Origin: Procambarus clarkii
Lineage: Eukaryota; Arthropoda; Malacostraca; Decapoda; Cambaridae
DNA: 64,000 nucleotides
Assembly (NCBI RefSeq): GCF_040958095.1
Contig: NC_091165.1
Span: forward strand, 29,964,215-30,028,214
Direction: 5' to 3'
The notes beneath the pieces were generated by a model that was given only the letters and a program-made list of their open reading frames with translations, had not been told where the DNA came from and ran no database searches. Shown one piece after another: positions 1 through 37,489 of this stretch; positions within the stretch are counted from its first letter, which is position 1; every line of letters begins with the position of its first letter. The position numbers and the translations under genes are program-made.

Positions 1-50
<50 letters not shown>
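1..50. repeat. (CA)n microsatellite, cut by window start
   Basis: Pure CA dinucleotide run that begins outside the window, so its full length is unknown. Confidence 0.97.
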
Positions 51-51
<1 letters not shown>

Positions 52-190
52 CTAACCAAGCAAAGCTTAACATCACATCTAAAAGATGATCAGAAGAGGT
101 ATCTCAAATTATTTCACTGAAAATAAAGTCAGGAAAGGTCGAAAATTCCAGTTCGACTAATTCAAAATTCCTGGAAACTTTCCTTATTAA

Positions 191-290
191 GACCTCTCAA
201 TAGCTTGGTCGATAGAGCTTCGCATGGAGTCAGCGGTTCGAGTCTCCTAGAACCCAGGTGAATAGAATCTCACTGAAAATTCCATGTGTG
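191..290 (+). mobile_element. tRNA-derived SINE remnant
   Basis: A box A-like stretch (TAGCTTGGTCGATAGAGC, 201-218) is followed about 17 bp later by a box B-like GGTTCGAGTC (235-244). That is the internal RNA polymerase III promoter layout of a tRNA head. The sequence after it does not fold as a complete tRNA, so this is a SINE head or pseudogene rather than a working tRNA gene. Confidence 0.5.
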
Positions 291-1213
291 AAGTATTGAT
301 TATAATTATGTAAGTTTATTTAAGACTATCGATAAGAAGATGGTTTAAAAACTTTTAATTTTCATTTATTTTCTCTTCTAACATTAAATTTCCAATAATA
401 TTTTGTATTAAATTTTGGGATATTGTTAAAGCTCCTTGAGAATAAAATAATGTATTATACCTTCCTAATTTATATTTTAGTCATGTTTATAAATATATAT
501 GTCTATATTAGTCATGTTAATAAAGTGATGGATTAATTATCAAAGAGGGGTAATTAGGGAGAGGGTAATTAGGGAGAGGGTAATAACCGGTTGCTAGATC
601 GTTCATAGATAAAAGAATTTAGAGGGGGGGGACGAGAGGTAAATTCCGCTTTTTAAATAGCTAAAGTTAAACAAAAAAAGAAATTTCACTTCTACAAACC
701 ACAAAACAGCCAGGCAAATTTTCCATGAAAATTTAACCAATGCCAACAAATTTAATCCAATTAATTATTGAATTTTAGGCACAGTCAAAAGGGAAGTTGA
801 CTCAAATGCCGGAAGGATTAATACACCGAGAAGTAAACCCAACTCATCGGTGTATAGTAAAGTTTACTATAGTTCTTAACTATATCCAGAAAGAAAAAAA
901 CTAAGGTATACTTTTTTGTTGATCAGTAAGCACACTTATGTCCTTAACAACCCTCCAGAATTTGATGGATCTAAAGCCCAACACTAAACCAAACTGAAAT
1001 TGTCAATTAAAATAAATTAAAAAAAATTAAGTCTCAATTAGACAAGCTCTTGACTCAGAATTATCGAAAGCCATTGTAGGTTACCCATTTGACAGGGTTA
1101 AAATATTTATAAAAACAAATTAATGTATGCTTTGTTCATGTGGTTCGATTTTTATCTAGTAATCGTGTTTTTAGATTTTAAAATTAATTCCTGTACATTT
1201 GTTATTCCAGAAT
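291..1213. other. AT-rich intergenic stretch
   Basis: No gene seen. The only internal structure is a short duplication of GGGTAATTAGGGAGA near 547-590 and a G run near 627. Confidence 0.7.
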
Positions 1214-1447
1214 AGATTGGAAGGTGAGTCTGGAGCATTCTCAACCATGGAAAGGTGAGTCTGGAGCAGTCTCAACCATGGAAAGGTGAGTTTGGGGCAT
1301 TTTCAACCATGGAAAGGTGAGTTTGGGGCATTTTCAACCATGGAAAGGTGAGTTTGGGGCATTCTCAACCATGGAAAGGTGAGTTTGGGGCATTCTCAAC
1401 CATGAAAAGATGAGTTTGGGGCAGTCTCAACCATGGAAAGATGAGTC
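1214..1447. repeat. 31-bp minisatellite, about 7.5 copies
   Basis: Units of 31 bp built on GGAAAGGTGAGTTTGGGGCA followed by TTCTCAACCAT. Units differ at a few positions (TCTGGAGCA or TTTGGGGCA; CATT or CAGT). AGGTGAGT repeats in every unit and looks like a splice donor consensus, but no exon context supports that. Confidence 0.93.
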
Positions 1448-1640
1448 CATCAGCTTCCCTTATTATCCACCAGAAGCCCTTATCATCCGCCAGTATATCA
1501 CCCGTCCGATGCCCTTATCATCCGTCAGTGGCCCTTGTCATTCGTCAACAATCTTTATCATCCGTCAGTAGATCTTGTCATCCATTTGAAGTCCTTATCA
1601 TCCGTCGCCTTACATGTAATCTTGCATCCATCATCCGGAG
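1448..1640. repeat. degenerate 20-21 bp repeat
   Basis: Recurrent CTTATCATCCGTCAGT-like units of 20-21 bp, decayed, beginning directly after the 31-bp array. The open frame at 1441-1650 is a translation of this repeat and not a gene. Confidence 0.7.
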
Positions 1641-1680
1641 CTGTTGTTAGCTGTGATTAATAACAATGACAACACTGACA

Positions 1681-1760
1681 AAATCCATTGGGGCAATGAG
1701 GTGACTCGAACCCGGGATCAGGGAACTCCCACCCCCACACCTTACCCCTGAACCATGTCT
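1681..1760 (-). mobile_element. tRNA-like SINE head
   Basis: The minus strand reads GATCCCGGGTTCGAGTC (box B, near 1702-1718) with a TTCAGGGGTAAGG box A-like region downstream on the plus strand. It is tRNA-like and most likely a SINE head fragment. Confidence 0.5.
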
Positions 1761-3533
<1,773 letters not shown>

Positions 3534-3737
3534 GGCCCAGAAAGGGCCCGGGTACAGGCCCAGAAAGGGCCCGGGTACAGGCCCAGAAAGGGCCCGGGTA
3601 CAGGCAGAGAAAGGGCCCGGGTACAGGCCCAGAAAGGGCCCGGGTACAGGCCCAGAAAGGGCCCGGGTACAGGCCCAGAAAGGGCCCGGGTACAGGCCCA
3701 GAAGGGGCCCGGGTACAGGCCCAGAAAGGGCCCGGGT
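3534..3737. repeat. GC-rich 23-bp minisatellite, about 9 copies
   Basis: Unit AGAAAGGGCCCGGGTACAGG plus CCC. Each unit carries overlapping palindromes GGGCCC and CCCGGG. It has no stop codon in any frame, and 23 is not a multiple of three, so long open frames appear in several frames on both strands (for example 3427-3798 plus and 3530-3751 minus). These are repeat translations, not genes. Confidence 0.96.
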
Positions 3738-3907
3738 ATCACAAAAGCCAAAGGATGTTTGGCTTTTGTGTTCCAGCAGATGTGGACTGCACCGCTGATA
3801 TACTTTGGGTAATTATGTAAGTGTAATTACTAAAGTTTAGTTAGAGGATGAGAGCTACTCTCGTAGTGTGTCGTGTTCATGGTACTCTTTGTCATATGAT
3901 GTTTTGC

Positions 3908-3929
3908 GTGTGTGTGTGTGTGTGTGTGT
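3908..3929. repeat. (GT)n tract at LINE 3' end
   Basis: Short GT run directly joined to the 3' end of the minus-strand LINE fragment. On the element strand it reads as an (AC)n tail. Confidence 0.9.
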
Positions 3930-4058
3930 AATCACCTAGTTGTGCTTGCGGGGGTTGAGCTTTGGCTCTTTAGTCCCGCCTCGCAATTGTAAATGAACTG
4001 GTGTACAGGTTCCTGACCCTATTGGACTCTATCATATCTACATTTGCCATTATGCATG
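3930..4058 (-). mobile_element. LINE 3' end (CR1/L2/jockey-type), 5'-truncated
   Basis: Read on the minus strand this matches the last 130 bp of the LINE at 29981-30562: GATATGATAGAG, then AGGCGGGACTAAAGAGCC, then CACAACTAGGTGA and an (AC)n tail. Only 3' UTR and the last few codons remain. It has GT/AC repeats on both sides in the same register. Confidence 0.8.

Positions 4059-4092
<34 letters not shown>
4059..4092. repeat. (GT)n microsatellite
   Basis: GT run directly abutting the 5' truncation point of the LINE fragment. Confidence 0.95.
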
Positions 4093-4095
<3 letters not shown>

Positions 4096-24654: not shown

Positions 24655-24835
24655 ACCAATATATATATATTAGTAGCAGTCTTTCTTGTAGTTTTATGTA
24701 ATTGAAATATGACAGAAAGCGTGAGATCGATGCTTCTAGCACGGTTCTTCTTTATAGTTCTTATGTTCTTCATTTTAAAAGGAAGTTGAAATATTAACTC
24801 CCCAAAATTCAGTGTACAGTTTTTTTTATGGCGTT
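24655..24835 (-). mobile_element. diverged Penelope-like terminal fragment
   Basis: Read on the minus strand it follows the 3' region of the element at 36129-36660: TGAATTTTGGGGAG, GAACCGTGCTAGAAGCAT, TTTCTGTCATATTT, AGAAAGACTGCTACTAATAT. Identity is moderate. It ends in the same short TA run. Confidence 0.7.
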
Positions 24836-25865: not shown

Positions 25866-26294
25866 TTGATCGAGTAATCCTTTGCAATCCAATGTAATCC
25901 AATGCACATTTTTGCTATGTGTGCATAGTCAGGCGCCTTGAAATAGATGTTGTTCCTTTATATTGAGATAGATGGGGCTGGCAGTCCCCAAGTGGGCCTG
26001 TGAAGGCATAGAGAACATTCGTCTCTTTCAAGACGTTCCGCTTGGCGTCTGGAGAGTTTTTCACGAGCAAGTATAGTATAGCATCACTCAGCACCAATTC
26101 CCCTCTCAAGTCCCCCTTTCCTTTGATTTAATCTCGGTGCCAAATCTGTATATGTAAGCGATATCTTTCCTATGATCGCCTCTACTTTGCATAATTGGAT
26201 ATTTAGCAGTTTAAGTATTTTCAAACTGCTGCCTCAGAAATGATTTTTTTTTTTAAATGCTAATTTGAGATTTACTTTCGTTTCGAGTGTCTGT
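25866..26294. other. intergenic stretch, nothing recognised
   Basis: No recognised feature; the minus frame at 25915-26109 has no family match. Confidence 0.55.
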
Positions 26295-33207: not shown

Positions 33208-33338
33208 TTATATATGGTAAACATTCGACCTCCTCGTATGTAAACATTCGACCTCCTCGTATGTAAACATTCGACCTCCTCGTATGTAAACATTCGACCT
33301 CCTCGTATGTAAACATTCGACCTCCTCGTATGTAAACC
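33208..33338. repeat. 23-bp minisatellite, about 5.7 perfect copies
   Basis: Unit GTAAACATTCGACCTCCTCG plus TAT, identical in all copies, so a recent expansion. Confidence 0.97.
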
Positions 33339-34574: not shown

Positions 34575-35566
34575 GGCCTGGGTAGTGAGGCTGGTTGCGT
34601 GCCTCGACCAGACCACTCTGGGTACTGGTCGACAGTTCATCCCTCTCACTCACTCCGGTCTGCTTTAAGCTGACTGGCTGGTGGCATGGGAGAATGGGGG
34701 GGGTGGGGGAGTAGGTCCTGGACTGTGGAGGCCAGAGTTTAGGTGGAAGCTTTAAGGACACTGGAGTTTATGGATGGTGCCTCTGAGGGCCCCCCTAGGA
34801 GAAGACGAATATTCAGGGAGACTGTGATATATGACTCGGAAACTCTGGTAGCCTTAAGTAAAAGTTTGCGGACTTAAGGAAAACTTATACTAAAGGATGG
34901 TGACTTGCGTAGATCAGACCTCTGTGGTGCTGGTGGCTCACAAAGTTGAGAAATATGAATGTTAACTTATTGAAACTGATATATATGAATTGTGATTTAT
35001 ATTCAGTCAAAATTTAGAAGATATTCTGTTTTGGTAAGCCTGGAAGTGGTCTTTAAATAGTTATAATTATAAATAATAATGTACACACACACACATAAAA
35101 ACATGACTAGTATCCATAAACAGTCAGAAATATGCTCAACCTGCTTCAGTAATATACGCTATAGCGTACCCAATCTAGAATGGCAGAGTAATAAAAAATA
35201 TGCCATTTGCATAATTATCTCTTTATGCAAATGCTGAACATATTTATAATCTAAATATCCGGACACATCATAGTTGTGTGTCCATGCATCACACTCATCA
35301 TAGAAACTAGCTCCTCAAAGGCTCTCAGGCTAGCCAACTGAGAGAATTCCATCAAGGAGAAGATTACCTCTGCTACGGTTGAGGAAGCATCATTCTCCCG
35401 TGGGAGAGTGTGGCTTCAAGCAACGAGAGTGACTTGATATGCAGCTTGAATCTCACTCTACTATCCATCTTAAACTTCTCTCTTAAGGCCAGCCTCCACA
35501 TGCCAACCCTGAATGGAAAGCAAGTTTCTTGGTGTTGGACGTTGCAATATTATAGCTTTCCTTAAA
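34574..35566. other. intergenic stretch, nothing recognised
   Basis: G run near 34696-34712. No gene or repeat family recognised. Confidence 0.55.
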
Positions 35567-35579
35567 TATATATATATAT

Positions 35580-36111
35580 ATATTTTATTAAATATGACCG
35601 AAAAAGTAAGATTAATAATTCTAACACGAATTTTCTCAATCTTTCGTACATTATGCTTCACTGTTGGAGGTAAATCAAAAATCACTTCTCCAAAATTCAT
35701 TTTTATTTCTAGTCTGACGCGACACGGGCGCGTTTCGTAAAACTTATTACATTTTCAAAGACTTCACAAATACACAACTGATTAGAACTTGCGTTTCCCT
35801 GATTTTATATCTACATTTGAGTGAGGTGGGAAGGGTGATGTGGCATTACATTTGAGTAAGGTGGGAAGGATGATGTGGCATTAGAGGATATTAATAGGGT
35901 ATTAAAAGTATCAACACAAGACAGAACACGAAACAATGGATATTGAATAGAAGTGTTTGTAGAAAGCCTATTGGTCCATATTTCTTGATGCTTCTATATT
36001 GGAGCGGAGTCTTGAGGTGGGTAGAATATAGTTGTGCAATAATTGGCTGTTGATTGCTGGTGCTGACTTCTTGATGTGTAGTGCCTCGCAAACGTCGAGC
36101 CGCCTGCTATC
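35580..36111 (-). mobile_element. 5'-truncated Penelope-like element, left arm of palindrome
   Basis: Left copy of a head-to-head pair; positions 35580-36088 pair with 36128-36636 with no indel. It contains the C-terminal end of the GIY-YIG endonuclease frame and about 390 bp of terminal region, including the TTTGAAAAT - GTAA/TTAC - GAAACG motif (35732-35759) and the AAACGCGCCCGTGTCGCGTC block. It ends in a (TA)n run at 35567-35582. Confidence 0.85.
35968..36111 (-). pseudogene. GIY-YIG endonuclease C-terminus (left copy)
   Basis: 47 codons plus stop: DSRRLDVCEALHIKKSAPAI, then NSQLLHNYILPTSRLR. The pattern RRxxxCEALHIKKxxPAIN is the end of the GIY-YIG nuclease domain in Penelope-like elements, where the glutamate of EA-hIKK is a conserved active-site residue. 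All upstream coding sequence is missing. Confidence 0.72.
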
Positions 36112-36128
36112 GCTAGCCGCCTGCTATC

Positions 36129-36248
36129 GAGGCACTACACATCAAGAAGTCAACACCAGCAATCAACAGCCAATTATTGCACAACTATATTCTACCCACC
36201 TCAAGACTCCGCTCCAATATAGAAGCATCAAGAAATATGGACCAATAG
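36129..36248 (+). pseudogene. GIY-YIG endonuclease C-terminus (right copy)
   Basis: EALHIKKSTPAINSQLLHNY, then ILPTSRLR, and the same stop. One residue differs from the left copy (Ala to Thr after KKS). A stop at 36114-36116 and the junction sequence close the frame upstream. Confidence 0.7.
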
Positions 36249-36660
36249 GCTTTCTACAAACACTTCTATTCAATATCCATTGTTTCGTGTTCTGTCTTGT
36301 GTTGATACTTTTAATACCCTATTAATATCCTCTAATGCCACATCATCCTTCCCACCTTACTCAAATGTAATGCCACATCACCCTTCCCACCTCACTCAAA
36401 TGTAGATATAAAATCAGGGAAACGCAAGTTCTAATCAGTTGTGTATTTGTGAAGTCTTTGAAAATGTAATAAGTTTTACGAAACGCGCCCGTGTCGCGTC
36501 AGACTAGAAATAAAAATGAATTTTGGAGAAGTGATTTTTGATTTACCTCCAACAGTGAAGCATAATGTACGAAAGATTGAGAAAATTCGTGTTAGAATTA
36601 TTAATCTTACTTTTTCGGTCATATTTAATAAAATATGTCTACAGGAAAGACTGCTACCAA
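36129..36660 (+). mobile_element. 5'-truncated Penelope-like element, right arm of palindrome
   Basis: Right copy, over 99 percent identical to the left arm by eye. The motif lies at 36457-36484 and the GCGCCCGTGTCGCG block at 36485-36499. The tail AGGAAAGACTGCTACC (36642-36658) is followed by a TA run. It extends about 24 bp further than the left arm at this end before the TA tract. Truncated about 20 codons later than the left copy. Confidence 0.85.
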
Positions 36661-36668
36661 AATATACT

Positions 36669-36696
36669 AATATATATATATATATATATATATATA
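36669..36696. repeat. (TA)n tract at Penelope-like 3' end
   Basis: Short TA run directly after the element, mirrored by the one at 35567-35582. Confidence 0.93.
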
Positions 36697-36699
36697 ACT

Positions 36700-36800
36700 G
36701 AAAACTTCCCACCCCAGAAGGATTCGAACCCAGACAGCTAAGAACACTATGCACCTTGGCATTCCTGGTATCTTAACCGCTAAACCACACTGACTGTACA
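36700..36800 (-). mobile_element. tRNA-derived SINE head
   Basis: The minus strand has box A GTGGTTTAGCGGTTAAGAT and box B GGGTTCGAATCCTTCTGG, about 40 bp apart, followed by GGTGGGAAGTTTTCAG. It is a tRNA-like fold by spacing, but the flanking body marks it as SINE-derived. Confidence 0.6.
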
Positions 36801-37489
36801 AAAATGTTGGTAATCGTGAGACTATTTACCCAATATCCGACAGCACTCGGTGGTTAACTTGGGCATAGATATTCCATCGAATCACCTCACTTGATGGGGT
36901 CATATGAGCAACACAAATGTGAACAATCTTGAATAGTTCCCAATAAAATATCATGAAAATCAATAAAATTGATTATCAAAGGCCTGTGAGAGACTCAAAG
37001 GCAGTACATATATTACATAAAAGCCAAACAAGTGTTGTATCACAATGTATTTTAACAAAAACTGCCCCCCCAAAAAATGTAAATAAACTGTAAATTGATC
37101 TCTTATTCTCAGTCATGCAGAAAAATGTTTTAAAGAGTATCAAGAGCTTCTCGCGGAACCACTAAGAGCTAAGAGTGTACAACTTCACGTATTAATTGAC
37201 ACGGCTCTCAACCAATAAAACTACAGCAGTCTATCTAAACAACCAATAATAACTAACTATAACAACATCCGCTGTTATATTTCGAAAGTATATTTGGATT
37301 TAAAGATGCCTTCACGTGAAACAAACGTTAGTGATATGCTTTTGATGAGTATTTTCCTTCGTCTTGGTGATTCATTTAAAAAGCCACAGATGGTCTCTTT
37401 TCTCAAGGTGGTAGGGTAATTAGTCGGCGTCGTTAAGTTAGGTGAGTATTAAGGTTCTTAACTGGTTAGGTGAGACACACATGACGCTT
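36801..37489. other. intergenic stretch, nothing recognised
   Basis: AT-rich, no recognised feature. Confidence 0.6.

Follow-up and report, generated by a model that had tools for sequence, protein, structure and literature searches.

We found that the window contains a near-perfect palindrome made of two head-to-head copies of a Penelope-like element (PLE). It quite probably represents a single insertion in which both target strands primed cDNA synthesis, probably on the same RNA from two start sites, and the two cDNAs were then joined. The window, which is the whole stretch of 64,000 nucleotides analysed here, corresponds to positions 29964215-30028214 of contig C16 in the 4.03-Gb genome of Procambarus clarkii. 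The first-pass annotation had proposed two 5'-truncated, head-to-head PLE copies from a single event, and this origin is supported as the most likely one.

The two arms of the palindrome were aligned exactly. Positions 35580-36088 and 36128-36636 are ungapped inverted copies with a coordinate sum of 72216, and 508 of 509 nucleotides are identical, which agrees with the earlier description (no indel and about one substitution). The sole mismatch lies at arm position 484 (36063 versus 36153). A repeat search extended the pair to 514 nt (35575-36088 and 36128-36641, 99% identity), with TA-rich outermost bases. For an inverted repeat of 509 nt with one mismatch, a chance origin is excluded. As shown in Table 1, each arm is a 5'-truncated PLE, with the 5' ends facing inward and the 3' ends facing outward into (TA)n. 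Element positions refer to L044, a full-length copy elsewhere in the genome, of which nucleotides 1018-4094 were numbered as reference positions 1-3077. As had been described, each arm carries the element 3' region and the GIY-YIG frame end; the frame end was read by eye, and translated relatives end alike. The 39-nt spacer had been described as holding two copies of AGCCGCCTGCTATCG. Both copies are present, but the left PLE copy reaches to 36114 and thereby takes up about 25 nt of the spacer, and the true filler is about 13 nt. The second AGCCGCCTGCTATCG (36115-36129) consists of the filler plus 36128-36129 and thus overlaps the right arm by 2 nt.

Table 1. Features of the palindrome, in window coordinates.
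Feature	Position	Strand	Basis
Left (TA)n target sequence, directly outside left arm	35566-35579		Sequence
Left arm, PLE copy; 5' truncation at about reference 2526, tail-less 3' end at reference 3042	35580-36114	-	Alignment to reference
GIY-YIG frame C-terminal end, left arm (EALHIKK..NMDQ, stop)	35968-36087	-	By eye as mirror of right arm; translations of relatives end alike
First AGCCGCCTGCTATCG, element sequence within left copy	36098-36112		Sequence comparison
13-nt filler at joint, repeats left-arm sequence	36115-36127		13-nt match to left flank, p=0.000 in 300 shuffles
Right arm, PLE copy; 5' truncation at about reference 2552, tailed 3' end at reference 3077	36128-36671	+	Alignment to reference
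GIY-YIG frame C-terminal end with stop, right arm	36129-36248	+	By eye; compared with translations of relatives
35-nt 3' tail, right arm only	36637-36671	+	Arm and reference alignments
Right (TA)n target sequence	36672-36696		Sequence

An assembly or hairpin-read artefact was considered and is disfavoured. A hairpin read would be expected to carry mirrored flanks as well, and the window palindrome has unlike outer ends and unlike flanks; the other junctions examined also differ among themselves.

Several other features were seen in the window. Adjoining the right TA array, positions 36697-36800 by eye resemble a tRNA-derived SINE on the minus strand with A- and B-box-like stretches. ARAGORN found 0 tRNAs in the right flank of the palindrome, and the tRNA-like boxes were seen only by eye. 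Similar SINE-like flanks lie beside the TA arrays of L020, L025, and L055. Two minus-strand fragments at 24664-24811 and 25922-26067 align to the L044 reference with 71% and 76% identity, respectively, and are probably older copies of a related PLE family. Positions 33217-33337 consist of a 23-nt unit (GTAAACATTCGACCTCCTCGTAT) in perfect tandem copies.

L044 carries an uninterrupted ORF of 821 codons, from an ATG at reference 207 to a stop at 2672. The ORF weakly matched Pfam RVT_1 (E 1.1e-6, 28.9 bits, slightly below the curated cut-off of 29.6) and, C-terminal to it, GIY-YIG (E 0.0046, 17.7 bits, below the cut-off of 22.6). The reverse transcriptase (RT) domain of a canonical PLE was therefore found on this related copy, and the window arms hold only the 3' end. 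The pseudo-LTR is a 364-nt direct repeat in L044. It contains the ATG and so the start of the ORF, and tandem or partial tandem copies were found. Among the matches listed, the spacing of same-strand neighbours up to 4 kb apart was 2715 nt in 3 of 7 cases and 2715-2770 nt in 6 of 7. Judged from its sequence, the anatomy of L044 (ORF, pseudo-LTR, and tandem spacing) is that of a PLE. The hammerhead ribozyme is not carried by all PLEs. Rfam gave no hammerhead match in L044 and L068 at the gathering score, and none for window positions 35000-37200 when E values up to 5 were allowed; a partial motif was seen only by eye. The short palindromes L052, L061, and L073 break at nearly the same place, at most about 15 nt from the ATG and, by eye, shortly after a partial hammerhead-like motif. 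In L029, the sequence before position 1057, which abuts a PLE copy at its 5' end, resembles by eye the RT of another PLE family; this joint is perhaps a template jump.

We examined how copies of the family are arranged in the genome. A 51-nt motif near the family 3' end, which occurs twice per full-length copy, had 62,287 genome-wide matches at up to 3 mismatches (31,366 + 30,921). The exact-match lists for this motif and for both types of 3' end comprise the first matches, all on contig C1. Among the matches listed, the first 100 exact motif matches on C1 gave 21 head-to-head, 6 tail-to-tail, and 7 tandem neighbours within 4 kb. Exact TA-flanked 3' ends (C1 1.37-27.35 Mb, 88 tail-less and 95 tailed) gave 41 outward-facing, 8 inward-facing, and 7 same-strand neighbours within 6 kb, again among the matches listed; the 4-kb and 6-kb neighbour lists overlap. 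These counts do not support a special status for the window structure, since head-to-head neighbours outnumber every other arrangement in both samples. Head-to-head PLE pairs are common in this large genome, and the window pair is unexceptional. TA was present on both sides in 31 of the 32 head-to-head pairs examined; the exception, L004, runs into a tandem unit. The layout of two-sided target-primed reverse transcription, with outward 3' ends at the target and joined 5' ends, was thus found in both the window and its relatives. Single copies also exist, with the 5' end in TA (L008 and L036) or in other DNA (L009, L015, L021, L029, and L042).

Copies of the family end at two positions that are only 35 nt apart, reference 3042 (tail-less, +121 nt from the ATG) and reference 3077 (tailed, +156). 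At up to 3 mismatches, 23,895 tail-less and 26,288 tailed TA-flanked ends were found genome-wide. We then read both outer ends of head-to-head pairs. One end of each type was present in 31 of 33 pairs (binomial 7e-8 against random choice), including the window, in which the left arm is tail-less and the right arm tailed. Both ends were tailed in L065 and apparently tail-less in the first pair of L040. Among the one-tail pairs, the tailed arm was the left one in 16 and the right one in 15. When neighbours were paired by position, without reading the sequence, 36 of 41 pairs had one end of each type, 2 were tail-less on both sides, and 3 tailed on both sides (among the matches listed). Three of these 36 pairs cluster at 24.98 Mb in an apparent local repeat, and several pairs are common to the sequence-read and positional samples.

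The 33 pairs were derived from 46 junctions (45 plus pair C10, L016/L017). Twelve were set aside because an outer end was unreadable or no plain pair was present (L005 second, L007, L012, L014, L018, L022, L023, L037 third, L043, L062, L064, and L067), and L004, whose left copy runs into a tandem unit, was dropped from the remaining 34. Eleven loci were skipped as duplicates or parts of others (L001, L031, L002, L003, L045, L016, L017, L030, L039, L027, and L057), and L076 and L078-L080 were omitted as duplicates. L071-L077 were chosen for shortness and for having one end of each type; they were excluded from the tail count and are biased to similar arms. Ends were assigned manually, including cases in which the alignment fell a few nt short (L005, L006, L038, L046, and L061). 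Arms internal to the pseudo-LTR were placed on 3' coordinates by adding 2715, and contig coordinates were used to obtain the left arm of L046 from L007. The right arms of L032 and L035 are interrupted or rearranged. All pair statistics concern one genome and one element family with hand-assigned ends, and some pairs may be unrecognised duplicates.

Truncation points were compared between partner arms. They lie within 30 nt of each other in 13 of the 31 one-tail pairs; in 20,000 shuffles of partners, there were 1.3 such pairs on average and never more than 7. These near-symmetric pairs are truncated at many positions, from about 1624 to 2926. The longer arm is tail-less in 8 and tailed in 10 of the remaining 18 pairs. 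When six short pairs, which are biased to similar arms, were added, 17 of 37 pairs fell within 40 nt. Among near-symmetric pairs differing by at least 10 nt, the tail-less arm was longer in 7 of 7. With the added pairs (38-pair set including L004), this became 9 of 9 (sign test 0.004), although L052, L061, and L073 may not be independent. Random trimming does not account for the longer tail-less arm, and we have no firm explanation of the tendency.

Two separate RNAs could also serve a two-sided insertion, in which case the target or the protein, rather than a shared RNA, would fix the choice of start site. Such an origin would account for one tail per pair and for unequal arms. It gives no account of truncation points coinciding at many positions in 13 of 31 pairs, and we consider it unlikely.

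The median identity between partner arms is 99.4% (30 pairs, including L004), versus 92.7% in 900 non-partner comparisons, and the observed mean was reached by none of 5000 shuffles. In the sets including L004, the partner was the best match of the left arm in 12 of 31 pairs and, when right arms alone were ranked, came first in 16 of 30. The near identity of the window arms had been taken as an argument for a single event. We dropped it as proof, because other copies are equally close: over 544 nt, the right arms of the window palindrome and of L037a show no difference, compared with 508 of 509 identical nt between the window arms. The first-pass annotation had named arms closer to other genomic copies than to each other as grounds against its reading, and this is what we found. 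The comparison with L037a has little weight in either direction, since a number of young copies hardly differ from one another.

Fillers at the joints were compared with nearby arm sequence at 25 hand-chosen junctions, of which 3 were too short. Fillers of at least 7 nt matched better than shuffled fillers at 15 of the 22 joints tested. The repeated sequence is direct in the window (13 nt) and both direct and inverted in L069 and L055. The remaining seven fillers had no flank match (L037, L046, L053, L068, L072, L077, and C10). Gaps of at least 7 nt at L005 second, L007, L023, L037 third, L040 first, and L043 lay outside this test. In L068, 165 nt (895-1059) between the arms of the PLE palindrome were identified by Rfam as 28S rRNA, antisense on the plus strand (eukaryotic large-subunit rRNA, 896-1097, minus strand, 218 bits). 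This orientation would fit a reverse transcript running on from the left, tail-less arm.

Some of these joints recall self-priming, in which a single cDNA folds back at its 3' end and copies itself into the second arm. For the head-to-head Penelope copies of a bdelloid rotifer, a previous report proposed that self-priming took place on an antisense template (PMC3846280, considered here in part). The near-perfect palindromes with short loops (13 of 31), the inverted fillers at several joints, and the palindromic 8-mer at the centre of L020 are in line with it. The perfect L020 centre was found at 7 exact places and at 1 with a mismatch, some of them perhaps produced by duplication. However, self-priming as we understand it predicts two ends of the same type and a second arm that does not exceed its template in length, and neither holds generally. 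All 13 near-symmetric pairs with both outer ends read have one end of each type. In the 18 unequal pairs the longer arm is tail-less in 8 and tailed in 10, and neither arm can in general be the template of the other because either may be longer. No mirrored target flank was apparent in the flanks examined, which are mostly TA only. Self-priming is therefore disfavoured, and we regard it as quite unlikely.

It is very improbable that two related copies inserted independently into one TA array. TA arrays are the common target, and 8 inward-facing neighbours within 6 kb exist among the matches listed. However, independent insertions predict about equal outward and inward pairs with random tails, whereas 41 to 8 and 36 of 41 were observed among the matches listed, and they would not give abutting 5' ends with matched truncation. 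Copying of the whole palindrome from another locus as a mobile foldback element is likewise highly improbable, since the window joint (searched at up to 3 mismatches) and the L053 joint each occur once in 4.03 Gb, even though the L069 joint recurs at 4 exact places, all on contig C1 (L069, L078, L079, and L080; 13.66-16.08 Mb), and at 2 places with 2 mismatches (C14 and C38), L075 and L076 share a joint, and L035 and L039 share a layout. L069, L078, and L080 have a common left flank of 7-13 nt beyond the TA, so that the L069-type palindrome was probably duplicated along with its surroundings.

Four features are together expected if both strands prime on one RNA, each from one of the two start sites, and the products are then joined: 3' ends that face outward into the target, a single tail in almost every pair read, truncation points that match in two fifths of the pairs, and a remainder that is unequal in either direction. 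According to this preferred model, the target would be a (TA)n array, both strands of which are cut by the element endonuclease. Each exposed 3' end would prime reverse transcription of the element RNA, one cDNA beginning at the tailed start site (+156 from the ATG) and the other at the tail-less site (+121). Both cDNAs would probably be templated by the same RNA molecule and run toward its 5' end, stopping at most 26 nt apart in the window. The facing cDNA ends may then have been joined via a 2-nt (CG) overlap and the 13-nt templated filler, by microhomology-mediated (polymerase-theta-like) end joining or by an RT template jump. The sequence itself shows the anatomy, the outward 3' ends in TA, the tail states, the matched truncation in 13 of 31 pairs, and the flank-like fillers, whereas we infer the double-strand cleavage, the order of the cDNAs, a single RNA as their common template, and the joining enzyme. 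Any target-site duplication would be masked by the (TA)n that borders the pair, and cleavage of both strands is therefore not directly visible. Of the mechanisms suggested earlier, twin priming lies near the preferred model and template switching may explain the filler, whereas a self-primed foldback is disfavoured.

Previous reports provide points of comparison, each considered here in part. In Adineta vaga, the head-to-head inverted arrangement of Penelope copies was the most frequently observed, a 31-bp tail was optional on one inverted pseudo-LTR, and palindromes at an inverted joint as well as microhomology at a 5' junction were described (PMC3846280). The layout, the tail on one inverted pseudo-LTR, and the palindromic joints are thus already published for that species, and the present pairs resemble it in all three. 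They differ in that the A. vaga set is low in copy number, includes some target duplications of 8-10 bp, and was explained by self-priming, whereas here there are tens of thousands of copies in a TA target, tail states were counted, and a two-sided model is preferred. The purified PLE protein PAc (Poseidon, from Anolis carolinensis) cuts and extends both strands in vitro; its two RT start sites correspond to the tail, and it is predicted to form a dimer (PMC11167929). The present family shares with it an RT, followed here by a putative GIY-YIG domain, a pseudo-LTR, a tail between two RT start sites, and an AT-rich target. For PAc, the start site was reported without apparent strand difference, which fits the balance of 16 to 15 between left and right tailed arms. 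The main PAc start lies 111-118 bp into the ORF, compared with ends at +121 and +156 here. It was reported as non-homologous to the cut DNA, whereas both ends here lie, by eye, at AT-rich stretches resembling the TA target. Head-to-head insertions are not discussed in the part of PMC11167929 covered, and its main text uses the term 'inverted' once, of a blocked oligonucleotide.

L1 twin priming likewise makes two opposite cDNAs that are primed by both target strands and joined mid-way (PMC12016303, considered in part). The inverted L1 cDNA starts internally, whereas in the window pair and the tabulated pairs both arms begin close to the 3' end, at one or other of two fixed sites separated by 35 nt (3042 and 3077), and repeat the same sequence, so that L1-type internal priming was not seen in them. 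Fillers copied from the flanks, direct or inverted, are a likeness to polymerase-theta-mediated end joining (PMC5068794, also in part); judged from the filler sequence, RT template jumping may also fit here, above all for the 28S filler of L068. The tail count, its link to two-sided priming, and the use of one RNA were not found in the open-access literature searched; subscription papers, including some classical Penelope work, were outside the search.

We tentatively propose a more specific form of the preferred model, which is possible but less secure than two-sided insertion itself. A PLE dimer may use one RNA twice, each protomer cutting one strand and starting a cDNA at its own site, 35 nt apart. 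Pairs would then commonly be born head-to-head with exactly one tail. Near-perfect palindromes would result when both polymerases reach the same RNA 5' end, and the tail-less one, being in the lead, would stop as much as 34 nt beyond the other.

There is no settled view of PLE insertion or of the reason for the high frequency of inverted copies. Two published proposals, self-priming and an internal start in which both strands are extended, predict different 3' ends, and counting can separate them in this genome, where the copies number in the tens of thousands and the TA target is uniform. If the one-RNA reading is true, PLEs would use a type of target-primed reverse transcription in which a single event commonly yields two cDNAs, and this would explain the origin of PLE palindromes and inverted pseudo-LTRs.
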